A stretch of 64,000 nt of DNA. Origin: Henricia sp. BOLD:AAB3569. Lineage: Eukaryota > Echinodermata > Asteroidea > Spinulosida > Echinasteridae. Both the position numbers and the translations under genes were made by a program. Shown here in pieces: positions 4,481 through 63,052 of this stretch. How positions within the stretch are numbered: position 1 is the stretch's first letter; each line of letters starts with the position of its first letter. The notes under the pieces were generated by a model. It had not been told where the DNA came from, made no database searches, and was given only the letters and a program-made list of their open reading frames with translations. The stretch is from NCBI GenBank assembly GCA_037783545.1, contig JBBELK010000691.1, positions 883,001 through 947,000 on the forward strand, read 5' to 3'.

Positions 4481-4583
4481 TTGGGGGGAGGGGGGAGGGG
4501 GGAGGGGGGAGGGGGGAGGGGGGAGGGGGGAGGGAGGGAGGGAGGGAGGGAGGAGAGGGGGAAGGGGGATGGGGGAGGGGGGT
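4481..4583 (+). repeat. GGGGGGA / GGGA microsatellite
   Basis: About 100 bp of almost pure purine, with many runs of four or more G on the plus strand. The units are GGGGGGA, then GGGA. The plus strand could form G-quadruplexes. The long open frames across it are a low-complexity artefact. Confidence 0.9.
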
Positions 4584-6321: not shown

Positions 6322-6328
6322 TATAAAA
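6322..6328 (+). promoter_or_regulatory. TATA box of the secreted-peptide gene
   Basis: TATAAAA lies 103 bp upstream of the ATG at 6431. A transcription start near 6350 would give a 5' leader of about 80 nt. No competing ATG is seen between about 6350 and 6431. Confidence 0.55.
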
Positions 6329-6430: not shown

Positions 6431-9400
6431 ATGAAATCTGCCGTAGTTGTAGTGCTCCTGGTGCTAGCCGTTCATAGTTTATTAGCGACATCCGCATCTT
6501 TGGTAAGTACATATCACTATAGTTTTCATTTCAAACAAAACTTTGAACGTCAAATTTCTTGCCAGTTTTGTCAATTCACCACAACTATTTACACATGTAT
6601 GCAGTGCGTTCAACAAAGAAAAGGATGATGAAAAATAGCAAGCCATTAGTTATCAGTTTCATGAATCACGTTATGTCCAATTCCATGTCCGAAAACGTAG
6701 TGAAATAAAGATTAACTGATGAAGTTGACTGAAGTTGAATTAAAAAATATATATATATATATATATATATGTTTCTCAATTTATTTTTGCAATCTTTGTT
6801 TTCGTTTTCGTCTGATATTCTACGAGAAAATCGAGTCTCGTAAAACATTTCCAGAAAGAAAAAGTACACTTTATACACTTTTTTTGCAAACCCTGCACTT
6901 ATATTATGTATACTCATCCGCAAAATGTATACGTCAAGAAACGTAGGCCTATATCTTCCCATTGCTTTTTCGTTCTAATGCACCACATTTTGTTGTTCAC
7001 ATTGTGACCTTTGGAAAAACCTTATTAGCACGAGCACCTGTAAGTGGACACGAAGTTAAACATCAAGATTCCCCCTTTTCAGCAATTATTTTTGCAAGGG
7101 GCCGGCAAAACCGTCATGTGCTCGAGTGCGCCCTTTGGCTTAATCACAAGTACGAGAAATTTGCATTCTGAAAAATAAAAATACATCCAATACGTTGGCA
7201 ACGCGCTCCTTACGCCCACGAAGACGCACAAGATTGTGATTCTTGGTTTGGAGGTCAATACGGCGTATCGATTTGGGGGTGTCTAAACAACCGCAACAAG
7301 GGGATAAACACGTATTCTCGCCCGATTGGAATCGATTTTTTTCCTCTCAATGAAACACCTTCTAAGACCGCAGTCCTGAAACAAGGTCTTCGCTCGACCT
7401 CACGCATGAGACCGGCGTTGAAGATTTCGCCATAGGGAGGTGGATCCTTTTTCTTGTCATAATCCTCATGGTTCATGATCCCGATTCGCTATGAACATAT
7501 GTCTTCATATTCAATTTCTAGAACTCCTTAACTTAGGAATGAGTAGAATTCAGAAACAAGGAATTACTGACTGCCTTTTGGTAAAGTTTTAATTCTTTTG
7601 ATGACGACTTGTGAATTCCTGAAGTCAATGTCTGTACGTCAAATGATGTCACACTAAAACAATTAATTTCCACGCAATGACGCGATCGACGATTTCAGAG
7701 AGAGGCAATAACCTCGTTTTTGTTTGCCGCCCAGCTCTTTCGCAGCGAACCAAGCCCTCCGCAGTCGTTGCCTGAGGCTGTTCACACCGTACCAACCAAT
7801 AAGTACGCCATAACGTTTGGGACTTGGAAAGCAAATTTGCAAATCAAGATTTTGAATTGTAGTTGGTGAAAAGACAAATTGACTGCGATAGGTGGAATAA
7901 ACGCGAGGCATTATAGAAATATAGTGAAAGCGTGCACAGACACAGTTTGGGATTTCCTTAGGTGCGTAAATTGAACGTGACATTCTTCACGGTAAAACCA
8001 TCAAAAATTGCAAATAGCTGACACTCTGGCAGCCTTAAATTAAAACTAGCCCCCTTCATGGCAGTTTCGCTGCTCGCACAAAGGAATCGATTACATAGGA
8101 GGTGACATCTTTATTAGAAGGCGGTTTTTAATTTGTGCTCATAACCTTACGCTATGCTATACGCACGCTCGTCCGCGATCCTTTTTTATTATGTTTTTGA
8201 CCTGACACAGGGTTTCTCCAGATAAATTGAATATTCTTCTGAAAGCCATCATCCTGTGTGGAAGTGTTTATTTCTTACAAATTTTCGAGCGTAACCCGCT
8301 CGTAACTGCAAATGATTCTCCTAAACCCGGTTAATAATTCACGCGAAAGCGAACGCGAAGTTGAACTCAGAGTTTTCGTTCCACGAATTCGAAGAAAATT
8401 GAATTGGTTTTAACTTGCGCTCAAATATTAGGCGCGAAATGTTTGACTTCAGATTTACGTCAAGATTCGCGAATTAACGCAATCGATTCTCGAATAAAGA
8501 CATTAACCATAACCCCTTGTTCTATGGAAAATCATGTACAAATTGGAGAATTTAGTACTGTTAGGGCTAAATATACCAAATGCAAAACAATTATAACTGC
8601 GATTGAAACGTAGTATTACACTGCAAAAACTATGGTGTTAAATTAACACCAGTGGTGTTGTCTTATATGGATACCAAGTCTGGTGTTAAAATTTAACCCC
8701 ATGGGTGTTAGTTTATATTTCTCAACTGGAATAAATGCATTATTGTTAACACCATAGGTGTTAAAGCTAATACTCGTGGTGTTAAAACCTAACACCAGGC
8801 TTGGTATCTATATAAGACAACACCACTGGTGTTAATTTAACACCACGGTTTTTGCAGTGTACAAGACTATCACTATTTGACTGTAATAAATTTCTATATT
8901 GGCAAAAATATCATTAATATTTTTGTTGTCCCTGCAATCAGCGATATCTTCGCATATAAACATAATTGCAAGGACTCCTTTTTCTCTATATATTATGACC
9001 ATATACAGCCTTATGCTGTGCAGTTTTGCCAGACCGATATGGACTGTCGGCGGCACTCGTTCGGTCGTCGATACTGTCTGGGCTGGGAATGCGAGAGGTA
9101 CTACCAAATGACACCGTGCACCAAGAATTCAGATTGTGCTGGAGGGAGAGGGGGAAATGTGTGCCGGAATATGTACTGCCGGCACTCCAGTTCCGGTAAG
9201 AGTTATGCCCCATGCATACCCACCCCTCCCTGCCTCAAACCTAGAGGCACCCAATGACTCCGTGCACCAAGAATTCAGATTGTGTTGGAGGGAGAGGGGG
9301 AAATGTGTGCCGAAATATGTACTGCCGGCACTCCAGTTCCGGTAAGAGTTATGCCCCATATACCCACCCCTCCCTGCCTCAAACCTAGAGGCACCCAATG

Positions 9401-11274
9401 ACTCCGTGCACCAAGAATTCAGATTGTGCTGAAGGGAGAGGGGGAAATGTGTGCCGGAATATGTACTGCCGACACTCTAGTTCCGGTAAGAGTTATGCCC
9501 CATACCCACCCCTCCCTGCCTCAAACCTAGAGGCACCCAATGACTCCGTGCACCAATAATTCAGATTGTGCTGGAGGGAGAGGGGTGAAAGGTGTGCCGG
9601 AATATGTACTGCCGACACTCCAGTTCCGGTAAGAGTTATGCCCCATACCCACCCCTCCCTGCCTCAAACCTAGAGGCACCCAATGACTCCGTGCACCAAT
9701 AATTCAGATTGTGCTGGAGGGAGAGGGGGGAAAGGTGTGCCGGAATATGTACTGCCGACACTCCAGTTCCGGTAAGAGTTATGCCCCATGCATACCCACC
9801 CCTCCCTGCCTCAAACCTAGAGGCACCCAATGACTCCGTGCACCAAGAATTAAGATTGTGCTGGAGGGAGAGGGGGAAATGTGTGCCGGAATATGTACTG
9901 CCGACACTCTAGTTCCGGTAAGAGTTATGCCCCATATACCCACCCCTCCCTGCCTCAAACCTAGAGGCACCCAATGACTCCGTGCACCAAGAATTCAGAT
10001 TGTGCTGGAGGGAGAGGGGGAAATGTGTGCCGGAATATGTACTGCCGACACTCTAGTTCCGGTAAGAGTTATGCCCCATACCCACCCCTCCCTGCCTCAA
10101 ACCTAGAGGCACCCAATGACTCCGTGCACCAAGAATTCAGACTGTGCTGGAGGGAGAGGGGGAAATGTGTGCCGGAATATGTACTGCCGGCACTCAAGTT
10201 CCGGTAAGAGTTATGCCCCATATACCCACCCCTCCCTGCCTCAAACCTAGAGGCACCAAATGACTCCGTGCACCAAGAATTCAGATTGTGCTGGAGGGAG
10301 AGGGGGAAATGTGTGCCGGAATATGTACTGCCGACACTCCAGTTCCGGTAAGAGTTATGCCCCATGCATACCCACCCCTCCCTGCCTCAAACCTAGAGGC
10401 ACCCAATGACTCCGTGCACCAATAATTCAGATTGTGCTGGAGGAAGAGGGGGAAATGTGTGCCGGAATATGTACTGCCGACACTCTAGTTCCGGTAAGAG
10501 TTATGCCCCATGCATACCCACCCCTCCCTGCCTCAAACCTAGAGGCACCCAATGACTCCGTGCACCAATAATTCAGATTGTGCTGGAGGGAGAGGGGGAA
10601 ATGTGTGCCGGAATATGTACTGCCGACACTCAAGTTCCGGTAAAAGTTATGCCCCATACCCACCCCTCCCTGCCTTAAACCTATAGGCACCCAATGACTC
10701 CGTGCCCCAAGAATTCAGATTGTGCTGGAGGGAGAGGGGGAAATGTGTGCCGGAATATGTACTGCCGACACTCTAGTTCCGGTAAGAGTTATGCCCCATA
10801 CCCACCCCTCCCTGCCTCAAACCTAGAGGCACCCAATGACTCCGTGCACCAAGAATTCAGATTGTGCTGAAGGGAGAGGGGGGAAAGGTGTGCCGGAATA
10901 TGTACTGCCGACACTCCAGTTCCGGTAAGAGTTATGCCCCATGCATACCCACCCCTCCCTGCCTCAAACCTAGAGGCACCCAATGACTCCGTGCACCAAG
11001 AATTAAGATTGTGCTGGAGGGAGAGGGGGAAATGTGTGCCGGAATATGTACTGCCGACACTCCAGTTCCGGTAAAAGTTATCTCCCATATACACACCCCT
11101 CCCTGCCTCAAACTAGAGACTGCGTTCCAAAAGACGCGAACATTGTACATAATTTGATTTGCAATATTTAACCGATATTTGCAATAGTGACCGATAAATC
11201 ATTCGTAATCTATAATAACTGTAATTTTATGCCAACCCCTCATGGATTAATGTATTTTATTTCCAGGACGATGA
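6431..11274 (+). CDS. small secreted cysteine-rich peptide precursor (about 83 aa, 8 Cys)
   Basis: The exons are 6431-6502, 9024-9195 and 11267-11274 (exon 3 continues as UTR to a donor at 11312). Junction phases are 0 and 1. Residues 1-23 are a strong signal peptide (MKSAVVVVLLVLAVHSLLA). The mature part has two similar four-cysteine blocks: C-x5-C-x9-C-x4-C and C-x5-C-x8-C-x4-C (second block C-TKNSD-C ... C-RNMY-C). It ends SSSGR and is basic. The spacing resembles EB-like or dickkopf-like half-modules and small host-defence or signalling peptides such as starfish cysteine-rich antimicrobial precursors. I cannot assign a family, and the function is unknown. The 3' half of exon 2 with its donor is the unit of the array at 9105-11118, so alternative splicing there is possible. 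Exon 3 was chosen by its acceptor (TATTTCCAG) and phase. A longer 3' end or a different last exon is possible. Confidence 0.62.
6746..6770. repeat. (AT)n microsatellite
   Basis: About 12 consecutive TA units in intron 1 of the peptide gene. The rest of that intron up to 8300 shows no further feature I can support. Confidence 0.85.
8340..8495. repeat. MITE, GCGAAAGCGAA family, copy 1
   Basis: CACGCGAAAGCGAACGCGAA at the left is matched by a degenerate complement near 8476-8495, and the inner motif GCGCGAAATGTTTGAC is shared. Relatives lie at 19289-19470 and about 30868-31040. It sits in intron 1 of the peptide gene. Confidence 0.55.
8619..8859. mobile_element. Tc1/mariner-type MITE with TA target duplication
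   Basis: The 241-bp element begins CACTGCAAAAAC and ends GTTTTTGCAGTG. TA lies on both sides (8617-8618 and 8860-8861). The inverted arms extend about 75 bp and are rich in GGTGTTAA motifs. It is non-coding and inserted 164 bp upstream of exon 2 of the secreted-peptide gene. Confidence 0.85.
9105..11118 (+). repeat. 14-copy tandem array built from the 3' half of a coding exon plus its 5' splice site
   Basis: The in-frame ATG of each unit is at 9108, 9254, 9398, 9540, 9683, 9830, 9974, 10116, 10260, 10406, 10552, 10694, 10836 and 10983, so the period is 142-147 bp. Copy 1 is the 3' half of exon 2. Each later copy repeats the second four-cysteine block, the donor G/GTAAGAG (the last reads GTAAAAG), a short pyrimidine-rich spacer and CTAG/AGGCACCC, which looks like an acceptor. 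The duplicated exon would be 97 nt. Length differences come mainly from spacer insertions such as CATATACCC, CATGCATACCC or CATACCC. Many changes relative to copy 1 are synonymous in the peptide frame. Copies 4, 5 and 13 carry a one-base insertion in the G-run that breaks the frame. The last copy runs into unique DNA at about 11118. Confidence 0.95.
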
Positions 11275-11548
11275 TACTTCTTGAACAAGATGTTGGTCCA
11301 TCTTCATACACGTGAGTTCCCCCTATGTTCCCATATGAGTGAGATTCATAATTAATATGTTATACTTGATTGTCGCTGACGGCTGGCCGCCTCTTCTTTT
11401 GTGAAAAGTTTCTAGATTCCTGTATTGGTAATCCTTTTCATATTTTGAGTAGTTTGTAACGACATGACTTTTATAAGTTCAAACAAATTATACTGTTTTT
11501 ATCATGGTGTACTTATGTTTTCTTCGAATTTTTCGTTTTGTAGATTGA

Positions 11549-11554
11549 AATAAA
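11549..11554 (+). terminator. poly(A) signal AATAAA, secreted-peptide gene
   Basis: AATAAA lies 275 bp past the stop codon. It is 6 nt after a good acceptor (TTTTGTAG, ending at 11543), and a donor (CAC/GTGAGT) sits at 11312. A spliced 3' UTR ending in this last exon is therefore plausible. Confidence 0.45.
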
Positions 11555-11776
11555 ATTTGAGAGCAATCATTTCACAACAACGCGAACTGGACCACTCGAC
11601 GCCATCTCCAAAGCACGCCTTCCCGGAAGTGGACACATGGCTTCCATGGATGCCAAACTCGTACAGTTATTTACAAACATGACATTTTAGCTTTCCCGTC
11701 AGCACAGTAATAATTATTACAATTGACTTCTCACAATTGATGTCTTGGAAGGTACGGCCATACTGCCATCACTACG

Positions 11777-15592: not shown

Positions 15593-18500
15593 TCAAAACT
15601 CATCTACCATACCTGGTTCAATAAGAGGTTCCTTTAATGGCGGACTCAGGCTTGGCGCGTATCTCTCCTTAGCTGTCATGGCGTTACTATCCTCGGCTGA
15701 GGGTGCCCTAACCTCATCTTGTTGTATGAGGCCCATCTGCGTGAGGTAGGGTCTAGTCTCCTCATCCACTGAGGCACCGTGTTCTAGGAGTACCTTACAA
15801 CACTCATTGTAGTCACGTGATGCGGCGAGGTACAGTGCGGTGTGGTTATTATTGTCCTTTAAATTGAGAACTCCAGTCGTGCTATTGGTAATATGAAACC
15901 ATTAATTGAATGGGGATCATGGGTTGCAGCTCTTAAGACGTATTAACTAAGACATCACAGATTAATTTTGTCTTGCAATAAAAATCTGCCATAACTCGTC
16001 TCTTGAGACAAAACAAAACGAGAACACCTCAATTCAATAGAGCCTTTGCACGGCGGCCATGACAGGGGCATTCACATTGTTACCATGTGTCATGCATGAG
16101 TAGTATTAGTATACGTGCTTTGTGGTTCTATTGTTACATCATTTAAATAAGAAAACCTGCCCCCTGTCATGGCCGCTGGTGCAGAAGCTCTATAACGGCA
16201 TATGACGTGTCTTAGACTTATGGCAATCTTATTGCAATCCACCCAAGGCCATTGTGATACCATTTCTGGTCATGTATTTACCATATCGCTGATAGGCCTA
16301 TATAAAACGTACGTGTTGGATCGACGTTCATTTTGGAGGTTTTTAAATTAAAGTGGCAAATGTGAAATGCAAAAATAACGAGAAATAGTTGGGCAAAATA
16401 TTGGTGATTACCTATTGTGGTCTTGGCTATCGTCTGTGTGCAGTTCAGACGACATTTTGATATCTTTCACAAGGATTTGCAGAATATCTCGGTAATCGCA
16501 TTCAGCTGCATCGTGAATTGGTGTCCTGCGAAGATTAAATAACACAAAACGTTCATTTTAAAAGAAAACATTCAATGGGCACTTGAGGCACGTGGTGGCA
16601 GCAAACAAACCCGTCCTTTTCCGTTTTCTGTTTGCTGCCACCAAGAGTCTTCCATTGAGTTCAGCCGAATCCTACATCTATACCATAAATGTTGCTCCAT
16701 GTATTATATTTCAATCGTTGCCATTTTGTGGGAGACAAACTTGAAATGGCCAACAACTTGCCCTTATCAGAATGTCTTTGCTGTGAATAAATACATAGAT
16801 ACAACTCGCAAATTTGTTAAACGATGAATTGCTTTAACACACCTTCCTTCAGCATCTTGTATAGACACGCCCCTTGATCCATTATTCATGAGTAGCTCGA
16901 TGACGTCCGTGTGTTGATTGGTTGTTGCAAGGTAAAGAGGCGTCTCGCCTTTACAATTGGTCGGATCTGAGATGGCTCCTTGGTCGAGTAGTAACCGACA
17001 AATAGCGCTATCGCCTCTAGATGCCGCAAAATGCAAAGCGGTCAATCCCTGATGGCAAGTAAGGGTGAATAAAAATCAGTATGGATGCCATATAATATGG
17101 ACCGAAACATGAATATCAAATACGAATACAACTAAATGACAAAAGACTTAAAATATTTCAGTCGTTTAGGAAATATCGCACGATACCTACATCTACATCT
17201 GATGACTCAATCCCCGCGTGTTTCTCAAGTATGATCTCGAAAATCTCTCGATGACCCGCGGAGGCGGCAAAAACAAACGGCGTCCTCCCCGGAAAATCGA
17301 CTAAGGTCAGGTTGCAGCCCTAAAACATAAGGCAAATACCAAAAGAGGTATAAAACCATTTGTATTTTGCATTATACAGTTGTATAAATGTAAAGGTTGA
17401 CAATATAAACGCTTCTTGCACCAATATCTAAATATTAATAGTGTGTCTAAAACGATCTATAGTCATATATCGCGCGTGGTCTGGCGCTTTAAAAACATAT
17501 CGTGGCAAGATATAGTCCAGTCGTCAGGGCACATGACCAAGATGGCAGCTCCCATGATACCTTATTTACGAGGTGACGCACGATGTCCGGTCTGTTGATC
17601 TGCACAGCGTAGTGGATTGGATAGAAGCCCAGCTTGTCTCGCACGTCGATGGCAGTTGTTGCATCGTCGTCAAGGAGAATTTCAACATTACTTCTCTGCA
17701 ATGTGAATGCAAAGAATGTATTACGTAGAAAAGACATATAGGCCTACATAGTTTGCCTATTTACAAATTAAGCAGTTCATTTGTATAAAGCTGAATCTTA
17801 TAGACGTATATAATTTGAATATCCCCTTCGATCACATGTGTACAGTTGTTGAAAGGGACTTCTTTTGCTGTCCAAATTCCTGTGACCGAAGGGGATTATC
17901 TAGGCCTACCATTCCCTGGATGACAGCCCAATGTAGCGGTGTCCGTCCTAAGTTGTCTAATTCATCCCGTTTGGAATCATGCTCTAAAAAGCATCTTATC
18001 AGCTCATAATTTCCCTGTAAAAGAAACCAAGTAGGCATACAGTTATTCAATTATTATGAGTGAACTGTTCGAAATGTGCATTGCTGGAAGTATTGAAAAT
18101 GTCTCAAAGCTCTTTCAAATGTTTGTACGTTTCATTTAAAAATTGCCCAACAGCAGACATGTAAAAAATAACCTATGCACTAATTGTAACCGAGAGGTGA
18201 TGGGTTCGAATCCCGATGTTGGTTCAGACACTACCAAATGCACTTGGTAAACTGACCTCGCCGGCTACCAGGTGCAGTACGGTATGTTGATGTCGATCCG
18301 TAATGTGAACCAGGGATGGATCTTTGTCAATCAGAAGTTTCGCACACGTACTGATCTGGAGGCGAGGGGAAATGCAAGAATGTATTTGTTATCAAAATGC
18401 TTCCAAAACCGAAAAAGGGTAACTTTTAAGAAAGACTGCGCCACAATCACGATTCTTAATTTTAAAAGCTTTGTTAATGGCATTAATGTCCATAAATCAA

Positions 18501-52000: not shown

Positions 52001-55000
52001 AGGCCATTGGCCTCAGTCGGTTAATATCAAGGCCTGAATCAACTGCCTAAATCAACTTTTGAATTTGAATTGCGTCGTCAATTCAAGCGATATTTTGGGA
52101 GCTGTTAGGGGGAATGCCACAATTTAAGTACTGATAATCATAGGGTTGTGCGCCTTGGCCGGGCAGTCGCCTAGTTGAAGTGAAATGGTTCTGGTGATTC
52201 CCTGATAGCAGTGGTAATAATGGCAACAGCGACAGGAGCACCCTGTTAGAAGGAATGCCACAATCTAACTAGGGTTGTGTGCCTTGGCCAGGTAGCCACC
52301 TAGTTGAAGTGAAATGGTTCTGGTGATTCCCTGATTGCAGTGGTAATAATGGCAACAGCGCCAGGAGTACTCTGTAGGGGGAATGCCACAATCTAACTGC
52401 TAATAGGGTTGTGTGCCTTGGCCGGGCAGCCACCTAGTTGAAGTGAAATGGTTATGGTGATTCCCTGATTGCAGCGGTAATAATGGCAACAGCGCCAGGA
52501 GTACCCTGTTAGGGGGAATGCCACAATCTAAGTGCTGATAGGGTTGTGTGCCTTGGCCGGGCAGCCACCTAGTTGAAGTGAAATGGTTCTGGTGATTCCC
52601 TGATGGCAGCGGTAATAATGGCGACAGCGCCAGGAATACTCCTGGCATATGCGTTATACAAGAATCCGCCATTCACTAACTGTTATCTATCTGTATGTCT
52701 TATAACAGCATCTCTGATATGGAGAGTCCCAAGGACCGAATTATCCAAGTAGTCCGATGGTTCATGACTGCTTTCCATGCCGGTCGTAGCAGCACCATTG
52801 CTAAGAAACCATACAACCCCATCCTGGGGGAAACAGTGCGTTGTTGGTGGGATCTTGGCCTGGAGAATGGCAATATAGACGGCAGTGAGGTGGGTTGTCT
52901 TCTGGTTTTATCAAATGTTGTGTCTGATTTGTAGTTTTCATTTTGAATTTGACAATAGCTGAACTTTCACTCTTCAAGGGACCAAAATAATCTGAGCATT
53001 ATATACTGCATTCTCTTGCAACCGTGCCTCTTTAACGCACTCCTCTACTCGTGCGTCCCGAGGCCCTGTTGAAATTGGCCCCATTTCGCTGTGGAAGCAG
53101 CGACAGAAATCTAGTCGCCGCTCTGGGCCAATCAGGACGCTTGGCAGTACATTGCGTGCGTTCAAATTTCGATTATACGCTCGTAACTGGGACAGACACT
53201 TGTGTTTTAGGCCGTCCCGATTTCGAGCGAATATTTGAAATTTGTACACAGGGTTTTTATAAAGGCATGTTGTCACACTATTTGTAACCATTTTTGGGCC
53301 TAAGTTATCTCTTCAGAAAAACTTAAACGTGTTTCATTTATTTTGAGACCAGACAGAGGTATTAAACGCCATCACGTTTATATTGTGTAAGTTATGTGTA
53401 AATCAGTGAACATTTCTGATTCCTCGGATACCAATCATGTATTCAACCTTTAACGTTGTGTGTATTTTTTTTATTACACTTTGCGTTGGCATAACAAATA
53501 CAGAAAATGCTAATAAAAAATACAAATGTAGAAATTAAAATATACATAAAATGTAAAAAAAAAGAAAAAAAAAAGAAATACCAAGCCAATGCATGGCAAG
53601 GAGGAACAGGTGACCAGCACCTCTACAAGGCCGTCCTACCACAAAGATTGTCCGCCTCCCCCCGTCCGTACAAACTTTATGGACAGCCCCTTATCCTTGA
53701 ATGTCGAACTGTTACCTCTTATTTGCAGGAGTTAGCAGATGGACCTGTTCCCTGGGCAACCAAAGACCAAGTTACGTTTGTAGCTGAGCAAGTTTCACAT
53801 CATCCACCAGGTAAGAATATGACGTGAAATATGAAACAAAAAGTCATTAATAATTGTAAAAATGTGTGCATCTCTCAAATTACCTTTCTCCATTATTCAG
53901 ACAAAGTCAAGGTATAGACCCTATAGACCTTTATCACGGTGCGTCCATCTTTGTCTTGTTCCCCACTGCATAGTACGTGTGCGTGTCATGCGTGTGCGTG
54001 TCTGCGCAATAGCGCGTGCAGTCTTCCGTTGTTGTTTTGAGAGAATCAATGTCAGCGCTGCGCGTTTTCTTGATCACACCGCACGCATGTCATTGTGATG
54101 CACACAATAAACATTTTTTAACACGGGGCCAAACTATTTTATTTCGGCAAGCCTCGCTTTTGTTACGTTTTTTTTAATAGGGGAAAAGGGAAGATGGCCG
54201 CACCGTGATAAAGGTCTATTCACACGAAAGGTCTGTTCAGTCTTGTCCCCTAAATCAGTCCCAAAGGGTTCAAGGTGCTTATTGGAATGGTACCAGACTA
54301 TGCGTTCTGATCCTCTTCTTGACAACACGATTTGGAGCACACACATAACTTGGACCTTTACAATCAACAGTTTCCATTTTATAGAACTGATTCAGGAGAC
54401 CCACTGATTCAGAAGGCCCATTGTATCATTTACAATGACCCAATTCTGTTTTTCATGAGTTCACAAGAAAAACCTTACTTAAAGTGTTGATAGCAATGGT
54501 AACAAACACCACATGAATTGATTTCCATCCAAAATGGTATTTCATGCTGGAAATTGACAAATGAAGGTGGTTTTCTAAAGGTTTTTACCATTCACTTGTA
54601 CACAAAATCAAAATATAGATTTTCAAGGTTTTCTGAAGCATTGATGCATCTAAGTAGCTAAAATTTCTTCAGGCTAGTTTACCAACATTCTTCCTTAAAT
54701 ATGTTACACTCTTATTCCACGAATCTTGCAAATGATACATTTGGCCTTTAAGCAAACTTGCTTCAGTAGTGCTAGATTATTTGGAGGATATTCAGGGTTA
54801 AGATATTGTCTTTTTCTTTCTTTCAGTTTCTGCATTTTATGCTGAACATTACAACAACCAGATGTCCATCAATGCTCACATTTGGACCAAGTCTAAGTTC
54901 CTGGGTTTATCTATCGGGGTAGATTTGGTTGGTCAAGGTGGGTTTCAAAAATTGTTTTACTCTGAATGTATGGTGGAAAACAACCATGTTATGCCTATTT

Positions 55001-58000
55001 AAAACGATTATGGGTAATTCCCGGGGTCTAAAACTGTTGATGTCCTAGTTATGTACGACACCCTGTGCTTCAAAAATTGCCACACATGGGCCTTTTTCCA
55101 AATCTCGACTTGGGCTCAGGCTCAGGCTCCGGCTCCATGTAAACCCTATGGAGACGGAGACGGAGACGAAGCCGATATCGATATTTGGAAAAGCCCCTTG
55201 ATCACAAATTCTCAGTAATAGACTGTGGCATGTGATTATAGGGGCCAGCATCATTTCCTTGACTATTTTGTTCTCTGATTACTGACAAATATTCGAAACA
55301 AGACCATAAAGGCTCATAATTTGTTCCATGATATTGAATAGGAATTCGGTGTCCCGGGTTAAATACGTCAATGAAAATTAGCTGTAGAATAAGTTTCCAT
55401 TAACCTTAGTGCCTTAACCACACACAAACATTAAAGGCACAGGCTCGTCAGCAATACACGTGCGCCAAATTCGTGCCACGAAATACACAGCTCCATAGCA
55501 AAGGCACGGAGCTGCGTATTGCTGTCGAGCCTGTGCCTGTAAAATTAAGTGAAAAAAATATTTTTCTCCTGGAAAACAACTTTTAATCAATAAAAACACT
55601 TGAAAATCTTTAAAAACATGTCACACTTTTGGACCCCTAATTTTGGGAATTACCCTTATATCAGTAACTGGAATTTCAAATTTGTACATTCTTGCATTTT
55701 TACAGCTTGTGTCTCGGATCTCAAACACGACGAAGAATACATCATGACGTTTCCTAACGCTTACGGTCGCTCCATATTGACAGTTCCATGGTTTGAGATG
55801 GGAGGCAAATGCATTATTAGCTGTGCTAAGACGGGGTTCACCAGTACCGTCACGTTTCTGACCAAACCGTTTTATGGCGGGAAAAAACATCGGGTCACTG
55901 GCGAAATCACGTAAGCTTGGAATTAAAGTCCTTTTTAGGGATAGAAAAAAAAGGGTTGAGGTTTTGAAAATCACCTGACAAATTTACATCTGAAACATCT
56001 GCAATTTACAATCCCTGATGTGATGCATGTCACACCATCTCATTTTAACCCTTAACAGGGGCGGATCCAGGATTTTCCAAAGTTTTTCAAATGTTTAAGC
56101 ATGAAGCCCTAACGGCGTGGGGTCCGGATTCTATAGATGCTCTGTGATTCGATCTCAGGCAATATTTAACCACTTTAAGCAGGCAAAAGTGTGGTGTCAT
56201 ATGAGGCAGATACCCCAACGGTTGCAAAAGTTATCGATAATTAAACAAAAAACATGCTTAAGGAAAAGGTGGGGGGGGGGGGGGGGTGGGGGTTGGTGCG
56301 CTGGGGCTAGATTTGTCCCTGCTTAACCAGAGCTGCCAACCCTCCCAGATTCTTCGGAAAATGACTAATTTTGTGAGTCCTGACATGAATAAACACCCTC
56401 CTGGATTGTCAATTAACAACCTTGGGGATTTTTACATGTGTTTGGAGTCACGGAATGAACCTGTTTTCCCGGATGTCTTCCCCAAAATCCGGGAGGGTTG
56501 GCAGCTCTGCTTAACACACTTGAACACGTAACCAAACACTTTTATAAACACTCATTTTGACCCTTGACATCAATGACTAGAGTTGCCAGGAACTACAATA
56601 GTGATGTAAAAGTGGTTAAAAGATTGAGCAGTGTGCTGAAAACATCTTCAGAGTAATGCCATCATTTTAAATTGTCTGTCTGTCTGTCTGAAACCTTGTT
56701 TAAATTGTTGGGTTGTTGCAGGCATGTGTCGGACCGTAAACCATTTATGACAATAGCAGGAGAATGGAACGGTGTCCTGACTGCCAAATACGCCAATGGG
56801 GTAAGTGATGACGCTCTCTTGGGCCCGTGGGATATTGGACCAGCAGCCGATTTCACGAAACTTTACGCAATTGCACAAGTCCACTTACGCCATAAATTAT
56901 TGCGCAAGTAATGGCGTAAGTGGACTTGCGCAATTGCGTAAGTTTCGTGAAATCGGCTGCTGGGTTCACTTTAGAATGAATGGTCTTCCTTGGGGAGGGG
57001 ATGGGGATGGTACAAGTAAAAAAGGTTTTCAATTCGGGGGGGAGGGGGGAGGGGGAGGGGGAGGGGGAGGGGGAGGGGGGAGGGGGGAGGGGGCTGGGGG
57101 GAGGGGGGAGGGGGGGGGGGGAGGGGGTTGGGGGTTGGGGGTTGGGGGTTGGGGGTTGGGGGTTGGGGGGAGGTGTGGGGAGGGAGGTGGTTTGAGGGTA
57201 ACCACCATCAACTTAAACCCTATCATGATACATGTATAAGGAAAGTACTTAACTCATTTTAATTACTTTTTTTTGTGGTAGAGTTATATTTGATCTTTGT
57301 TAGACATGTAACATGGATATTTGTTGATTATTTGATGATTACATTTCTGTAGCGCACATTCCATATGAGCATGTTCACATGCGCTGTACATTATTATGAG
57401 TTTATAGAAGTATCCTCCACCTAAACATCGAGATACATAGGTGGGTGGTGCCATTGGCAGCCCACGGCCAGAGACACCGGGTAATCCCCTTTTACTCTTC
57501 AAGAAAGAGTGCCTCTGGGATCTTTTAAGTGCGTTACACAACACACTGGACCAATGGCTTTACATCCCTTCCGAAGGATGGAGCAATTGCGGTTAGATGC
57601 CTTGCTCAAGGGCTACCATGGCTGGGTATCGAACCCGCAACCCCAAGTTTTCACCCAAGTATTGCGAGTTAACGACCCAAACCACTCGGCCACGATATAT
57701 ATGTAACCTAATTATTAATAGAAATGTATCATGATTTGTCATTGACTGTCAGGATACGGAAGAGTTTGCAGATACAACAACCATGAAAGTCAACAAAAAG
57801 AGAAGTATGCCTGTTGAGCAACAAGGGGAATTTGAGTCAAAGAGGTAGGATTGATGTCCTCATTGAGTTGTCATACCTTCTTAAATAAAAAAGTTAGCAT
57901 CTTGAGAAAAAAATTATTTTGAAGAAATTCCATAATACAAAAATGAGATTTTACCCACTTACTCAAATGAAAGATAGAAGTGGTTCCAACTGTTCTACTG

Positions 58001-59081
58001 TTCCAACTGACTACTGTGGTATTTTCCATGCATTATAGTCAGGAAACCAGACTAAATAGGACGGTGGCTTCGCACAATTTCCTGAAACCATGGACACAGT
58101 TTTCCATTGTTTCCGAATTTAGATGAGGTACTAACTGACTTATGCACAGGTTGGTTTATTTGACGAGCATCCTCAGTCACACAGTTTCCCCCAATCCTAT
58201 AATCAATCTTTTAATCTAAGGCTCTGGAAAGATGTCACGCACTACCTCAAGACACGTAATATTGACAAAGCCACAGATCACAAGCAGTTCCTTGAAGGGA
58301 GACAACGAGATGAGGCCAAGGCGAGGAAAGAGAAAGGGGAGAAATGGCAGACAAAGGTAAGGTCATAGGTAATACAAGGTCATGACCTTTGGGTGCAAAA
58401 TACATTTGGTATTTGCTTTGTTGATGTTTTTACTCAGTTTCTAATTAAGGGGCCGTCCAAAGTTGTCAACATTTTCATGAGTCTACAAAATGTAGCAAGG
58501 GGGAGGGGAGTCGAGGGGCTGCGTAGGACCTTGCATCTACTGTAAAATGTTGATAAGTAGTATTTCATGGGAAGGGGGCGGGGGGTGGTGGGTGTCTTGA
58601 AAAATACTATACTCTGTACAATCTTGAAAATGTTGACAACCCGAAGGGGAAATCTCCCCTTTGCGAATGAATGCTCTCGGATCTTTTAAGTGTATTACAC
58701 AACACACTGGACCTACGGCTTTACATCCCATACGGATGATTAAGTAATTAGGCTTAGTGTCTTGCACAAGTACCTTGAGTGGTTTCGAACCCACTTGTGT
58801 TTGCCAGTCAATGACCCAAACCACCCAGCCATGGTGCTTTGTAATTGTTGACGTTTTGCGTCTTTCTGCCGACTTAATAGTTCTTCCACGACGACGGCGA
58901 ATGCTGGATTTTCAACAACCCTCTCCAGAAACGCTTGAAAGCGACGCAAGACGAAACCTCTCAATTGACTGGAAGTCCTGTAACAAACTCACACGTACCC
59001 GGTTTCCATGGCGACGGGCCAACTGTTAATGTAACATCAACTAAAACAGCCAGTCAGGAAGTTTTGGATCTACTGAGTTGA
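34029..59081 (+). CDS. OSBPL9: oxysterol-binding protein-related protein 9 (ORP9, 752 aa)
   Basis: The exons are 34029-34154, 35286-35336, 37521-37599, 38408-38484, 43789-43971, 44868-44918, 48136-48244, 49349-49565, 50038-50153, 50623-50785, 52709-52889, 53729-53810, 54827-54937, 55706-55910, 56722-56800, 57753-57844, 58221-58356 and 58881-59081. All phases agree. Residues 10-108 are the PH domain ([20 protein letters not shown]). Residues 112-190 form a coiled-coil region ([20 protein letters not shown]). The FFAT-type VAP-binding motif DFYDADE is at 285-291 after SSSDEE. The ORD lipid-transfer domain runs from about 345 to 710, with [28 protein letters not shown] (PI4P binding) and the fingerprint EQVSHHPP at 471-478. 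Length is close to human ORP9L (736). Known role: sterol/phosphatidylserine-for-PI4P exchange at ER-Golgi/endosome contacts. The start ATG at 34029 is the first in frame (GCCAAAATGTC). Two alternative first exons lie inside the gene (36781 and 41554). Confidence 0.96.
34779..35099. repeat. fold-back MITE, family A, copy 2
   Basis: It shares CGTATACATTGAACAAAG, CCTCCTGGAATCAACA and TTTTGTCGCAAATGTTGCTT with 2500-2859. The right arm is cut after GCAACATTTGCGACGGAAG. It carries an insert GCGCGCGCGCAGCACCCTCT absent from copy 1. It lies in OSBPL9 intron 1. Confidence 0.8.
35548..35640. repeat. MITE family C fragment
   Basis: CTTTGCACTGGCAGCCATAT, then TGATGTGACAATAGATCCAC and TACTCAATGCATGA follow the order of complete family C elements. 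One end is lost. It sits in OSBPL9 intron 2. Confidence 0.6.
36150..36185 (+). repeat. GGGGGTT microsatellite
   Basis: Five G-runs of five or more, separated by TT, on the coding strand of OSBPL9 intron 2. It could form a quadruplex in DNA or pre-mRNA. Confidence 0.85.
36781..36885 (+). CDS. OSBPL9: candidate alternative first exon of OSBPL9 (35 residues)
   Basis: A 105-nt open frame starts at an ATG with an in-frame TGA 39 nt upstream. It is acidic ([20 protein letters not shown]) and ends AAAAG/GTAAGA in phase 0. That is the phase needed to join the exon at 37521 (GALIGIDDQ). Splicing there would replace the first half of the PH domain with this leader. AATATATAC at 36650-36660 could serve as a TATA-like element. 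It has no convincing acceptor, which fits a first exon. It resembles nothing I know, and the gene model does not need it. Confidence 0.45.
37139..37445. repeat. MITE, GACCTTTATCAC family, copy 2
   Basis: Left TAGGCCTTTATCACAGTGCG and right GCACCGTAATAAAGGTCT are inverted repeats. The inside includes TGAACAATTTCAAAACAGG. It ends 75 bp before OSBPL9 exon 3. Confidence 0.85.
37734..37963. mobile_element. Tc1/mariner MITE with Sleeping Beauty-like ends, copy 1
   Basis: It begins CAGTTGAAGTCAGAA and ends TTCTGACTTCAACTG, with TA duplicated at 37732-37733 and 37964-37965. The terminal CAGTTGAAGTC-GAAG pattern is that of Tc1-type transposons such as Sleeping Beauty. At 230 bp it has no transposase. 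It lies in OSBPL9 intron 3. Confidence 0.9.
38887..39010. repeat. fold-back family B, copy 3
   Basis: GAGGCTCGCCAGCAATGCGC ... GCACATTGCTGACGAGCCTC palindrome with the core GTGCCACGAAATACGCAG. It lies in OSBPL9 intron 4. Confidence 0.9.
39115..39224 (+). repeat. perfect tandem duplication of 55 bp
   Basis: AAGAGTGATCAGATCCAGGT ... CGAACCTTGTTTTAGAAT occurs twice head to tail with no visible difference, so the duplication is recent or an assembly artefact. It lies in OSBPL9 intron 4. Confidence 0.95.
40241..40417. repeat. fold-back family D (CGATACGGTCTAT), complete copy
   Basis: Outer arms AAACAGTGTTGGTTATAGAC and GTCTATAACCAACACTGTTT are perfect complements. They continue through CGTATCGAATAGCC / GGCTATTCGATACG. 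It is 177 bp, in OSBPL9 intron 4. Confidence 0.95.
41554..41769 (+). CDS. OSBPL9: candidate alternative first exon giving a PH-less short ORP9
   Basis: An open frame from ATG 41554 (second in-frame ATG at 41632) runs 72 codons to TGCTGCTCG/GTAGGG in phase 0. That is the phase of the next exon at 43789. The encoded leader is very basic in the middle ([17 protein letters not shown]), then acidic. Joining to 43789 gives a protein that lacks the PH domain but keeps the coiled coil, FFAT and ORD. Mammalian OSBPL9 makes such a short form (ORP9S). Transcript evidence is needed; the placement and phase are what support it. Confidence 0.5.
41943..42190 (+). mobile_element. tRNA-derived SINE, plus orientation
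   Basis: The head GGTACCGTGGCCGAGTGGTT has an A box (TGGCCGAGTGG), and GGTTCGATACC is a B box. The body (TTGAGCAAGGCACTTAAACA, CTCCATTCTTCAGAAGGGA, GTGTCTCTGGCC) is shared in reverse by 57302-57705, 58640-58835 and 60310-60470. It lies in OSBPL9 intron 4. Confidence 0.85.
43552..43703. repeat. fold-back family D, diverged copy
   Basis: AATAGACCATATCGAATAGC ... GCAGCTATTGGATACAGTCT with the inner CATGCATGGTTGCACATTTT shared with 40241-40417. It ends 86 bp before OSBPL9 exon 5. Confidence 0.85.
44146..44345. mobile_element. 200-bp MITE with TA duplication
   Basis: It begins CACTGCTCACAATAA and ends TTATTGTGAGCAGTG, with TA at 44144-44145 and 44346-44347. The interior is non-coding. It lies in OSBPL9 intron 5. 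Confidence 0.85.
45196..45345. repeat. fold-back element
   Basis: CAAATTTCCCCTTATACGTA with TGTAACTGGACAGACAAAA is complemented by TTTTGTCTGTCCAGTTACAT with ACGTATAAGGGGAAATTTG around a ten-base loop. It lies in OSBPL9 intron 6. Confidence 0.85.
45439..45922. repeat. possible 480-bp element with short inverted ends
   Basis: GAGCAAGTTCGGGCGGGT at the left and ACACCCGAACTTGCTC at the right are complementary with one mismatch. The interior contains CTAGACTAACCATAGTCGAT palindromic bits. No target duplication was confirmed. Confidence 0.5.
46308..46560. repeat. fold-back family E (GTCTTTCCACAGTAAAGG), complete copy
   Basis: GAGTCTTTCCACAGTAAAGG at the left and CCTTTACTGTGGAAAGACCC at the right are complementary. 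TTTTGGCAACACAGACCATA is mirrored inside. Partial relatives lie at 49789-49915 and about 53225-53355. Confidence 0.9.
46890..47066 (+). repeat. fold-back family F (CGATTTCACGAAA), copy 1
   Basis: CAGCAGCCGATTTCACGAAA ... TTTCGTGAAATCGGCTGCTG palindromic ends. The interior carries TTGCGTAAGCCCACTTGCGC. It lies in OSBPL9 intron 6. Confidence 0.9.
47337..47506 (-). repeat. fold-back family F, copy 2 (opposite orientation)
   Basis: It matches 46890-47066 in reverse complement over its whole length, including GCTTGCGTGTTATCATCGCT. The two copies, 270 bp apart, could pair over about 170 bp in the OSBPL9 pre-mRNA. Confidence 0.9.
48316..48541. repeat. fold-back MITE (GGGGCCAATTTCATAGAG)
   Basis: GGGGCCAATTTCATAGAGCT ... 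TATGAAATTGGCCCC ends; inside, GCTTAAGCA / TGCTTAA arms and a TCATGTGATTG / ATCACATGA pair. It begins 72 bp after OSBPL9 exon 7. Confidence 0.85.
48685..49000 (+). repeat. interrupted tRNA-like SINE with an internal duplication
   Basis: ACAGCTCAGTTGGTAGAGCA is a tRNA 5' half (A box). The matching 3' half (CGGAGGTCTCAGGTTCAAAT) lies 240 bp downstream. Between them a segment with CTGTTTGGCTGTTACYA and CAGTGGTGATTAGGCACCAT occurs twice (about 48761-48825 and 48826-48893). Confidence 0.6.
49128..49300 (+). repeat. tRNA-like sequence (TGT anticodon loop) heading a SINE-like tail
   Basis: Positions 49128-49199 fold as a cloverleaf by eye. The D arm is GTC-loop-GAC, the anticodon arm is TCTGC-CTTGTTT-GCAGA (TGT, threonine), and the T arm is GTGGG-TTCGAAT-CCCAC. 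Six acceptor pairs form, with an A-A mismatch at the first. TTTTT follows 11 nt later. It lies in OSBPL9 intron 7 among SINE debris, and a tail (CGGGAAAGCACTGAGTATAC) continues, so a SINE head is more likely than a working tRNA gene. Confidence 0.55.
49627..49772. repeat. MITE family C, copy 3
   Basis: TAGAGCCTTTGCACGGCGGC ... GCCGGTGCAGAAGCTCTA, about 62 bp after OSBPL9 exon 8. A family E fragment follows directly (49789-49915). Confidence 0.9.
51392..51564. repeat. 173-bp near-perfect hairpin
   Basis: ATTGACTGCTGTTTATTCGG ... GGTCATGGTTAAGATTATAG is mirrored by CTATAATCTTAACCATGCCC. Central arms pair through TGATCTCGAAGCCATGACTA. It lies in OSBPL9 intron 10. Confidence 0.9.
51590..52037 (+). 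repeat. two-copy tandem duplication split by a transposon
   Basis: GGCATGCTGGCCAAGTTGGC ... GTTAAGGCCTGG (51594-51703) is repeated from 51709, but the second copy is interrupted after GAAAGTGTATA by the MITE at 51745-51969. It then resumes TCTTCAAGGGGCTTCAAGGC. Confidence 0.85.
51745..51969 (-). mobile_element. Tc1/mariner MITE with Sleeping Beauty-like ends, copy 2
   Basis: Ends CAGTTGTAGTCAGAAGTTTA and TAAACTTCTGACTTCAACTG, flanked by TA on both sides. The interior matches 37734-37963 in reverse orientation (GTGTGCTTAAACTTGCGTTG). The uninterrupted sister copy of the host repeat shows the empty site. Confidence 0.93.
52111..52640 (+). repeat. four-copy tandem array, 128-141 bp units
   Basis: Units start at GGAATGCCACAAT at 52111, 52252, 52380 and 52515. 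Each contains GGGTTGTGTGCCTTGGCC, CCTAGTTGAAGTGAAATGG and CGGTAATAATGGCAACAGCG. The last ends 69 bp before OSBPL9 exon 11. Part of a unit (GCAGCGGTAATAATGGCAAC) also occurs singly at about 970-1022 in CLCC1. Confidence 0.93.
53931..54220. repeat. MITE, GACCTTTATCAC family, complete copy
   Basis: CTATAGACCTTTATCACGGT at the left and GCACCGTGATAAAGGTCTAT at the right are near-exact complements. It is 290 bp, begins 120 bp after OSBPL9 exon 12, and is the best-preserved of the three copies. Confidence 0.93.
54411..54752. repeat. fold-back element (GGCCCATTGTATCATTTAC)
   Basis: AAGGCCCATTGTATCATTTA at the left pairs with AAATGATACATTTGGCCTTT at the right. A small relative lies at 61649-61795. 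It ends 74 bp before OSBPL9 exon 13. Confidence 0.8.
55008..55668. repeat. fold-back family G, copy 1, with a nested insertion
   Basis: GGGTAATTCCCGGGGTCTAA ... GGACCCCTAATTTTGGGAAT ends. The body matches 59848-60287 (GATCACAAATTCTCAGTAAT, TGAATAGGAATTCGGTGTCC) but is interrupted at 55433-55540 by fold-back family B. It ends about 40 bp before OSBPL9 exon 14. Confidence 0.85.
55433..55540. repeat. fold-back family B, copy 4 (nested)
   Basis: AAAGGCACAGGCTCGTCAGC ... GAGCCTGTGCCTGT. The right arm has lost the GTGCCACGAA segment found in the other copies. It is inserted in family G copy 1. Confidence 0.85.
56270..56300 (+). repeat. poly-G tract
   Basis: About 16 G in a row, then TGGGGGTTGG, in OSBPL9 intron 14. 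Confidence 0.9.
56840..56964. repeat. fold-back family F, copy 3 (short)
   Basis: CAGCAGCCGATTTCACGAAA ... TTTCGTGAAATCGGCTGCTG with inner AAGTCCACTTACGCCA / TGGCGTAAGTGGACTT arms. It starts 40 bp after OSBPL9 exon 15. Confidence 0.93.
57037..57190 (+). repeat. GGGGGA / GGGGGTT microsatellite
   Basis: About 150 bp of G-runs: GGGGGA units, then about six GGGGGTT units. It is on the coding strand of OSBPL9 intron 15. Long Gly/Glu-rich or Pro-rich open frames over it are artefacts. Confidence 0.95.
57302..57705 (-). mobile_element. tRNA-derived SINE, minus orientation
   Basis: Read on the minus strand, TGGCCGAGTGGTTTGGGTCG (A box) and GGTTCGATACCC (B box) are followed by CCTTGAGCAAGGCATCTAAC and a long tail. 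It is the same family as 41943-42190, in OSBPL9 intron 15. Confidence 0.85.
58640..58835 (-). mobile_element. tRNA-derived SINE, minus orientation, second copy
   Basis: CTGGGTGGTTTGGGTCATTG head, GGTTCGAAACC B box and the shared body (AGCCGTAGGTCCAGTGTGTT) read on the minus strand. It ends about 45 bp before the last OSBPL9 exon. Confidence 0.8.
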
Positions 59082-59847
59082 TGGCGGGAGTTGTCATAGC
59101 AACTATCACTATGCAGAATTAATGTATCATGTTGATATGTTTAAATTAAAAACTGCCAACAAATCATGCATATCATGCAGCTCAATCCATGTATTGGCCT
59201 TTGCACTGAAACAACCAAAGATTGTAGACTATGGAAGACAAATCTGTGCTAACAACTTATATTTACTGCAGCTTTGTGTATTATTAATCATGAGCAATCA
59301 AAAAATGAAGACCGTTTGATTTAAAATACACCGCAGTGTAGCTGAAATAGAACTACATTTAACCCTTTGAACCCTAAATGTCACATTTGTGACTTCCCCG
59401 TGAACAAGGAATAACACGATGAGCCCCTATTGTGACTTTTGAGTGACATCTTCATAACCGGTTGACAAAAGAGGACCTTAAGCCAATCAGAATGGCTGTT
59501 ACAGCAGGGTCATGGTGTCATTGCGCATAAATAATTTAGGGTAGGTTTGACTTGGTCTAAGACTGGTTAAGACTATCAAATGGAAAAGTGGTTGTTCTGT
59601 AATACCAGACTTCCTTGGCATCCTGTTCACCACTTGCACGAAACCGCCGCATTGGCAAGACTCCCTCGCGTCGTTACCACGTCGGTTGCTGTGACGTTGA
59701 CTTTTGTCCATTCTAAAACATGACGTATGCTAGGAAAGCCTCGTTTTGAACGCGACTATGGTAAATAAAATGGCCTTTAGCGTATAATCCAGAAGAATAA
59801 CTTTCCAATCTTTATAATGGCCATTTCTTTAGCGCATTTCACATATG

Positions 59848-60287
59848 GGTCATTCCCAAAATTAGGGGTCCAAAATTGTTGGTGTCCCAGTTACGTACGA
59901 CACTCTCTGCTTCAAAAATCACCCCTCCTGATCACAAATTCTCAGTAATGGACTGTGGCCTGTGATCATAGGGGGGCAGCATAATTCTCCGATTCCTGAA
60001 AAATATTTAAAACAAAAGACCATAAAAGCTTATAATTTGTTCCATGGTATTGAATAGGAGTTTGGTGTCCCGGGTTACCTACGCCAATGAAAATTGGCTG
60101 TAGAATGAGTTTGCATTAACCTTGGTGCCATATTTACACACAGACATTAAATTTAAGTGGCATTTGTTAAAATTAAAATAATTATTATCTACTGGGAAAC
60201 CACTTTCAATCACTAAAAACACTTGGAAATCTTAAAAAGCATGTCACACTTTTGGACCCCTAATTTTGGGAATGACCCATATGGCCA
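59848..60287. repeat. fold-back family G, uninterrupted copy
   Basis: ATATGGGTCATTCCCAAAAT with TAGGGGTCC at the left pairs with GGACCCCTAATTTTGGGAAT with GACCCATAT at the right. It is 440 bp and non-coding, and serves as reference for the nested copy at 55008-55668. Confidence 0.93.
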
Positions 60288-60309
60288 AGCCAGATACGGG
60301 TTTATCACT

Positions 60310-60470
60310 TCTCTTTGCGAATAAATGCTCTGGGGTCTTTTAGGTTCATTACACAAAACACTGGACCTATGGCTTTACATTCCACCCAAAGGAAGAAGCA
60401 ATCAGTGTTAAGTTCCTTGATTGAGGACAAAAGTACCTCGGGTGGTTTTTGATTTGGGTTCATTGAGAAG
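60310..60470 (-). repeat. SINE remnant, minus orientation
   Basis: ACACAAAACACTGGACCTAT and GCTTTACATTCCACCCAAAG match the bodies at 57302-57705 and 58640-58835. The tRNA head is decayed. Confidence 0.7.
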
Positions 60471-60514
60471 CATGATATATCGTAAATTCCTTGTCAGAAC
60501 TAGAAGTAGTTCTG

Positions 60515-60896
60515 GGGCGGTATTCACAAAACGACTTAAGTCGTGAAATTTAAGCGCCCCGCTTAAATTCTAGACTTAAGTCAAATCATAAAGTTAAGTG
60601 GTATTCACAGCGCGTTTTCTTTTAGTGGCCCGCTTATTTTTTAGACTTAAACTTAAGTGTGGTCTGACCTGTCTTAAGTGCATTTAACGCTGGGTCAACC
60701 GTCTGCAATAACAATTTAGACATTGGGAGATTACAACAGATTTCAATTTTTATTCTTACTGACCTTAAAAAGCCTTCGTTCGCCACTGACCATTGACTAC
60801 CGCATAGCACAACGTACGTCGTCTACTTGTGGTACGTGCACGCGTATGTGTGCACGACACGCGCGTAATGTGAATACCGCCCCTGAGATATACTGA
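60515..60896. repeat. fold-back MITE (GGGGCGGTATTCAC)
   Basis: CTGGGGCGGTATTCACAAAA at the left and GTGAATACCGCCCCTGAG at the right are complementary. GACTTAAGTC motifs recur inside. It is about 380 bp. Confidence 0.85.
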
Positions 60897-61013
60897 GGAG
60901 CCTTGCTGTTCAGAACTTTGTGAGCATCAGTTTGAAGATAATTCGTTGTGAGAACGGAAGCTAATCGTGATGCAGTTCTAGAATTCAAGTGATATGACAG
61001 GAATTTCTTGATA

Positions 61014-61457
61014 ATGTCTCGATGTACGCTGCAGCGTTATGGACATTGTATTGGTGCCGTTTTGTATTTTGAGGCAAGCAGCTTGACTGATAAGAGTGTA
61101 AAATTGTCAATTTCAGCTTTTCTCTCAAAAAACAGCCAGTTTACATTTCCTTTCAAGATAAAATTGCCACAGGGTGATATCACCGAATGTAAGTTGTACA
61201 TATATTTCATTCCAAGTAATGGTTGTCGCAGATTCTGTAACCACGTTCATCAAAACATTTGGTTTTACATTGGCAATCCAGATCATTTTTTTGAAAAAAA
61301 TAGTTGGTGTGTCATTCCAGAAGATTATATTGAATGGGAGAACATAAGAAGCAATTTCTGTCTAATTAGTTATGGGTGTTATTCAAGAATAATTGCAAAG
61401 TGGTCACCAATTTCGAGACCCTACTCTAACAGCAGAAATGTACTGGTAAAAACATAA
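61014..61457 (+). CDS. orphan open reading frame, 147 codons
   Basis: This is the longest single-frame ORF in the window outside the recognised genes. It runs from ATG 61014 to TAA 61455-61457 in AT-rich DNA. The product would have nine cysteines and many aromatics (NIWFYIGNPDHFF, EDYIEWENI), no signal peptide and no motif I recognise. It sits 120 bp after a MITE. It may be a single-exon gene, an exon of an unseen gene, a decayed mobile-element frame, or chance. I infer no function. Confidence 0.25.
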   Translation: MSRCTLQRYGHCIGAVLYFEASSLTDKSVKLSISAFLSKNSQFTFPFKIKLPQGDITECKLYIYFIPSNGCRRFCNHVHQNIWFYIGNPDHFFEKNSWCVIPEDYIEWENIRSNFCLISYGCYSRIIAKWSPISRPYSNSRNVLVKT

Positions 61458-61648
61458 TATGAAAACGCTGATTATCATGTAAACTGCAAGTATATGTAAA
61501 TTATGGCAGATTTTATAAACATGTACATAGAAATAGAGGGGCATTAAATTGCAGTTTATACACGAATGCACTGAGGTTTATTATTTTTCTTCCCGGACCA
61601 ATAGATCCTTTGCACCGGTGGCCATGTCTGTGACAGGTATTGTTATTT

Positions 61649-61795
61649 AAAGGCCCAGTGTATCATTTGCAATGACCCCAAATAGTAATCGACGAGTTTA
61701 CAGGGGAAAAGTTCTGAAAGTAAAGATTGAATTATAATGGTTTTTTCGCAGAATCGCTCAAAAACAGATCATCTACAGGGCCTTTAAATGATACA
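61649..61795. repeat. small fold-back (GGCCCAGTGTATCATTTGC)
   Basis: TAAAGGCCCAGTGTATCATT at the left pairs with GGCCTTTAAATGATAC at the right. It is related to 54411-54752. Confidence 0.7.
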
Positions 61796-62189
61796 GCCAT
61801 GCATAGTTATAAAATGACTACCCAGAATATATACAAAATTCCTTTGACTAATCGATTTCCTCCTTCCCTCCCCCCAAAAAGGTATACCCAGCACGATTTG
61901 GGCCTAAGGACTCCCCCTATGACTCGACACACTCTTCCCTTTTGTTAACACACCAAATTCCTTGAATGTTTGAGACACGATGGTAGGGGTGGGGTACCCT
62001 CGGCCCCAGATCGTGCTGCATATGAAAAATAGTACAAACTATCGCATAGATAAGAAAATGATACAGTACTTTAGCAGCATTAGTAAACATTTTACCACAA
62101 TATTTTTAGAATACATTTTTGAAATAAAAAAAAAGCCCATGCATAATGTGAATCTCTTTTGTGTATGTGTGGTTCTGAACCACACATAT

Positions 62190-62585: not shown

Positions 62586-62909
62586 AAGAAATTCACATGC
62601 CTGCTACCATAAACTTGTTGATTTCCACAATGCATAGCCTTAAGTCTTACCTAGTTAAGAGTACACTAAGTTATATATTTCAGAATATTTGGAAGCATTG
62701 CGACAATCATTTGTTAGATATTTAAGTACAAAGCATGCATTTCATGCAAAACAAATAACATAATTTACAAGTTGAGAAAAAATTGTGACTTAAAGTCTAC
62801 AATAGGAAGAATACATTTAAGTACATGCACTATTGCATCTGTTTTTAAAACCATATTTCTTTTATAATTTCTGCGTGCTTTTGATTGTTCATCCAGCAGA
62901 AAACACCAA

Positions 62910-63049: not shown

Positions 63050-63052
63050 TTG

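Follow-up and report, generated by a model that had tools for sequence, protein, structure and literature searches.

A probable polymorphic exon-intron minisatellite in a predicted secreted-peptide gene of the sea star Henricia

How does a coding exon come to have its own end, splice donor included, repeated many times inside the gene it belongs to, and do the extra copies contribute to the protein? We address these questions at a locus of Henricia sp. BOLD:AAB3569 (Echinodermata, Asteroidea), in a stretch of 64,000 nucleotides that we refer to as the window (assembly GCA_037783545.1, contig JBBELK010000691.1, positions 883,001 to 947,000 of the forward strand). Here, the 3' half of exon 2 of a predicted peptide gene, together with its donor and the start of the following intron, stands in 14 tandem units. 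The array is real and not a chance resemblance. We are fairly confident that it represents a polymorphic exon-intron minisatellite, the units of which would mostly be passengers. A coding exon end with its donor has apparently been caught amid minisatellite expansion, with apparently two allele lengths in one assembly. How a cell settles on a single splice site when many near-identical sites are present becomes directly testable at such a locus, as does the question whether arrays of this kind can replace coding sequence.

The array and a second, shorter one

The host gene, as modelled from the sequence, has three exons with GT-AG splice sites throughout and an 88-residue product containing eight cysteines, arranged as two blocks of four, and a Gly-Arg end (Table 1). 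Tandem Repeats Finder (TRF) reports a single tandem array across the second block and the adjoining intron (period 146, 14.0 copies, 95% matches, score 3586), and the starts of all 14 units are spaced by 142-147 bp. The exonic part of each unit amounts to 82 bp, counted from the codon preceding the first cysteine of the module (83 bp in three units), while the 5' half of the exon is attached to copy 1 and to none of copies 2-14. The original prediction had described both the 14 copies at this spacing and the restriction of the 5' half to the first copy, and both descriptions agree with the unit comparison.

Other details of that prediction needed correction. A GT donor is present in 14/14 units, as GTAAGAG or, in units 11 and 14 and not in the last copy only, as GTAAAAG. 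Coding part and GTAA[AG]AG donor thus occur together in every unit, that is, the tandem unit spans the exon end and the predicted donor at 9195. The pyrimidine-rich intron tract ends in the acceptor-like CTAG ahead of 12 of the 13 extra units, as expected, and in CTAT ahead of unit 12. The four-cysteine block, which had been claimed for every copy, has an intact frame in nine of the 14 window units; the other five are broken, either by a +1 frameshift (units 4, 5 and 13) or by an in-frame TAA (units 6 and 14). Unit lengths fall into classes that reflect chiefly a 0-, 2- or 4-base difference in the intron (none, AT or ATGC).

The genome was searched for related sequences over the whole 740.7-Mb assembly (2104 contigs), with only the best candidates scored. 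Among these, the DNA search returned 19 matches, 14 in the window and five, reversed, on another contig (C105). Likewise, the protein search gave 23 matches, of which 22 fell in these two loci, and no paralogue beyond them was found among the best-scored candidates. The remaining protein match, on contig C1210 (E 3.27), was considered as a paralogue and taken as chance; an open frame of 929 residues (1140 according to the protein search) lies in this stretch, looks by eye like a zinc-finger and DNA-polymerase-like protein and probably derives from a mobile element.

The array on C105 has five units, and all four of its extra units are intact. Both contigs predict an identical 88-residue precursor, with GT-AG sites, TATAAA and AATAAA at corresponding places, and the coding differences between them are all synonymous (one in exon 1, four in exon 2). 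Furthermore, C105 is collinear with the locus at ~87-99% identity, with gaps, across the sampled stretches, namely window 1-32165, the ~9 kb preceding the window, window 54726-63997 and C691:984.9-985.4 kb. These samples are placed from C691:873.9 kb to 985.4 kb, a span of ~111 kb, and the last of them matches over only 470 bases in three pieces. C105 is apparently the other haplotype of a variable animal. If it is allelic, the 14 units on one syntenic contig and five on the other constitute a haplotype difference, and to this extent the suggestion of an exon-derived minisatellite of varying copy number is upheld.

Alternatively, the array may have been mis-sized during assembly, or C105 may be a second locus instead of an allele. 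Tandem repeats are prone to assembly error, C105 could be a segmental duplicate, and a sample ~490 kb away, its position merely guessed, had no match to C105; the last two points weigh against the reading that we favour. On the other hand, the array measures merely 2 kb and the near samples are collinear. Because there is no identical pair among the 19 units, and because the second contig carries a five-unit array of its own, inflation by assembly is unlikely, the exact copy numbers being those of the assembled sequence. We judge that an artefact or a paralogue is quite an improbable explanation.

Close to the array, the two contigs differ at 5 of 1202 aligned bases (7883-9103); over the wider upstream region (6883-9082) they differ at 38 of 2149. 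The arrays nevertheless differ by nine units between such close flanks (5/1202), and the number of units thus seems to evolve quickly compared with point mutation.

We propose that a segment comprising the 3' half of exon 2, its donor and ~50 bp of intron was first duplicated in tandem. The array would then have spread through unequal exchange and block duplication, as the patterns among units suggest, with 14 units on one haplotype and five on the other as the outcome, provided that C105 represents the other haplotype. In the most likely normal transcript, exon 1 would be joined to position 9009 of exon 2, splicing from the donor of unit 1 would skip the rest of the array, and exon 3 would follow from 11267, units 2-14 being mostly passenger sequence. 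Unit 1 would be at once coding exon and array member, so that turnover could swap the coding module for an array unit, and selection would afterwards hold the protein constant; these last two steps are supported, although not proven, by the comparison of units.

Turnover and splicing of the units

Every one of the 19 units is distinct, with a smallest pairwise distance of 1. Close pairs are 3/7, 7/12 and 7 with the third unit of C105, at a distance of 1, and 1/9 and 5/13, at two alignment columns each, the latter two pairs pointing to block duplication. Mean distances are 7.4 inside the window array, 5.8 inside the C105 array and 7.1 between contigs. No unit-by-unit correspondence between the contigs was seen in the 19-unit alignment; a possible exception is the right edge, with the fifth unit of C105 nearest to window unit 14 (distance 7). 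The first units of the two arrays are nine columns apart, which is no closer than the between-contig mean. Between their coding parts there are four differences in 92 bases, each of them synonymous, compared with 0 of 95 in the 5' half of exon 2, and three of the four fall at sites that also vary among other units. This contrast, and the sharing of variable sites, suggest that array units replace the coding module.

Further observations stand on the opposing side. The signal for module replacement is statistically soft: the Fisher test yields P = 0.0023 against 5/1202, a near-upstream background picked after the profile had been seen, but 0.091 against 38/2149 and 0.057 against the 5' half of the exon. 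Across the 19 units, 7 of 14 single-base coding variants are synonymous where 23-26% would be expected (P 0.023-0.047 for kappa 1-3), in a count that omits indels and includes variants from unit 1 and from broken units. This excess could, as a weak indication, reflect constraint on the modules; descent of the units from an exon under constraint would also produce it. In addition, none of the five units on C105 is broken, and transcripts could still make use of internal modules.

Whether such use would yield a protein depends on reading phase. The phase is 0 at the end of exon 1, 1 at the donors of exon 2 and of the modules whose length is intact, and again 0 at the acceptor-like site by which a module is entered. 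The one use that keeps the frame, and which the original prediction does not mention, joins exon 1 to a single module and then to exon 3; its product would be a peptide with four cysteines. An AG acceptor together with an open frame is found in 7 of the 13 extra window modules and in 4/4 on C105, and the predicted products end in CRHSSSGR. The modules might accordingly act as mutually exclusive cassettes, from which short four-cysteine secreted peptides would be made beside the eight-cysteine one. The phases (0 in, 1 out), these in-frame products, the pyrimidine-rich tract ahead of CTAG and the synonymous excess are all compatible with this scheme. However, 5 of the 13 extra window units are broken and one more, unit 12, is without the AG, and the acceptor is intron sequence that fits by accident; for a fit of phase alone, the chance is one in three. 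The gain would also be small: the intact modules vary at few residues (K/N, A/V, G/E, T/P, P/Q) and are near-alike in peptide, and therefore store little variety. We regard the cassettes as rather unlikely. Also unlikely, in our estimate, is a self-editing coding exon, in which unit 1 would be both coding module and border of a hypervariable array, unequal exchange would repeatedly bring array modules into the gene, and any intact module could also be spliced directly from exon 1 into a short four-cysteine peptide, the array serving as a cis-acting reservoir that rewrites and diversifies one secreted peptide.

The original prediction saw in the array a ready-made bank of extra cysteine modules; with the modules as additions, exon 2 would be followed by one or more of them to give a longer peptide. 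In favour of such additions are the donor in all 14 units and the intact cysteine block in nine. But because the donor leaves in phase 1 and the acceptor enters in phase 0, a junction from exon 2 to a module, or from one module to another, shifts the frame; with exon 2 and module 2 this destroys the cysteine pattern on both contigs. Moreover, the gap between adjoining modules is only 45-49 bp, and introns of this length lie under the usual minimum in animals. On the grounds of reading phase and spacing we reject serial addition, which appears very improbable. Broken units and low variety further weaken the notion of a bank, even though the four extra modules of C105 are all intact. A polymorphic minisatellite with mostly passenger units is the explanation that we retain.

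The predicted peptide and other features of the window

The gene probably encodes a small, secreted, eight-cysteine peptide. The Gly-Arg end of the precursor could act as an amidation signal, if the general rules for such peptides apply. Compared with Pfam in a version five residues shorter than the final gene model, the precursor remained below the gathering cut-offs of late nodulin (15.7 against 30.4 bits), Delta ctenitoxin (14.8 against 27) and Dickkopf N-terminal (9.1 against 25), and the module alone reached 19.3 bits (E 0.0014) with Delta ctenitoxin, for which the cut-off is 27. The peptide had no match among sequences of solved structures up to E 10. With no Pfam family over its cut-off and no solved-structure match, assignment to a known peptide family was rejected. 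For exon 2 alone, the predicted fold had a mean predicted local distance difference test (pLDDT) score of 60.5 and a predicted template modelling (pTM) score of 0.31, too poor for fold comparison. Among the literature matches listed, from searches that did not go by this gene's name and from a coverage mostly outside subscription journals, no title points to this gene.

Table 1. Features of the predicted gene and of its array, in window coordinates
Feature	Position	Strand	Remarks
TATAAA, putative promoter element	6322..6327	+	109 bp 5' of the start codon; matching distance on C105
Exon 1, coding part	6431..6502	+	signal-peptide-like MKSAVVVVLLVLAVHSLLATSASL (by eye); ends in phase 0, then GTAAGT
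Exon 2	9009..9195	+	two four-cysteine blocks; 3' half (from ~9104) is array unit 1; donor GTAAGAG, leaves phase 1
Minisatellite array, 14 units	9103..11118	+	exon 2 3' half, donor and 45-49 bp of intron per unit; TRF and unit comparison
Units 4 and 5	9536..9825	+	+1 frameshift within a G-rich run, cysteine frame lost
Unit 6	9826..9969	+	in-frame TAA
Unit 12	10690..10831	+	frame open; preceding acceptor-like AG replaced by AT
Unit 13	10832..10978	+	+1 frameshift; differs from unit 5 in two columns, which suggests block duplication
Unit 14	10979..11120	+	in-frame TAA; donor GTAAAAG; own right edge
Exon 3, putatively terminal	11267..11570	+	finishes Gly-Arg, stop, 3' UTR; AATAAA at 11549; end approximate

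Intron 1 contains a near-palindrome at 8617-8861, with 98-bp arms that are 88% complementary across a spacer of 49 bp; it abounds in GGTGTTAACACC-like motifs and looks like a short inverted-repeat transposon. Elsewhere in the window are another tandem array (52102-52644, four copies of ~135 bp with 88% matches), a pair of G-rich arrays built on a GGGGGGA unit (4483-4582 and 57036-57173) and an open frame with an ankyrin repeat on the minus strand (15593-15901; Pfam Ank, E 1.7e-06). In the same assembly, COX1 occurs three times on contig C955 (L036-L038), 16,221 bp apart, with a single further occurrence on C2104, a pattern that resembles assembly of the mitochondrial genome as a concatemer. 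The mitochondrial COX1 stays open over at least 518 residues under the six tried code tables in which TGA is Trp and AGA/AGG remain residues, and not under tables 1 and 2; near its start, a position conserved as Asn has the codon AAA, which is Asn in tables 9 and 14. These readings fit the echinoderm code, and the order of the tRNA genes is reminiscent of a sea star.

Comparison with known systems

In the purple sea urchin, the SpTransformer (Sp185/333) genes make up a multigene family of ~50, and their repeats lie in the second exon (PMC5491942, PMC5103432). They share with the Henricia gene that they are small echinoderm genes with repeats, rapid diversification being a feature of SpTransformer; in contrast, we find one locus, and an array that is mostly intronic.

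The repeat units of LPA are in-frame exons. Its kringle IV type 2 units measure 5.6 kb and are reported to generate >40 protein isoforms (PMC6314250). In LPA, as at our locus, an array of variable copy number lies within a gene, whereas serial joining of repeat exons in Henricia breaks the frame, as exon 2 and module 2 do on both contigs.

In human segmental duplications, internal tandem repeats located at exon-intron boundaries have been linked to alternative splicing and to new introns (PMC2812944). Minisatellite expansion across an exon-intron boundary is common to those repeats and to ours. The human repeats have 30-bp units, a mean of four repeats and RNA support (PMC2812944), whereas the Henricia array is known from sequence, with no paralogue found among the candidates scored.

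Two variants of human CBS come nearer. In 844_845ins68, the junction of intron 7 and exon 8 is duplicated, the distal splice site is strongly favoured and the duplicated part of the exon is removed (PMC2630376). Similar splice sites lie close together in both cases, although ins68 is a single 68-bp duplication and not an array; it warns that the first of several like splice sites need not be the one that is used. The other variant, the 31-bp variable number tandem repeat c.1444_1467+7(16_21), is polymorphic with 16-21 copies (PMC2630376) and offers a close precedent, the Henricia array plausibly being of the same kind. As its name indicates, the CBS unit consists of the 3' end of a coding exon and the start of an intron (24 + 7 bp), and the Henricia unit is built likewise. 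What sets the Henricia array apart from repeats of the CBS type is a unit of 142-147 bp that combines an entire cysteine block with a donor and an acceptor-like site of fitting phase, and a coding module that forms unit 1 of the array.

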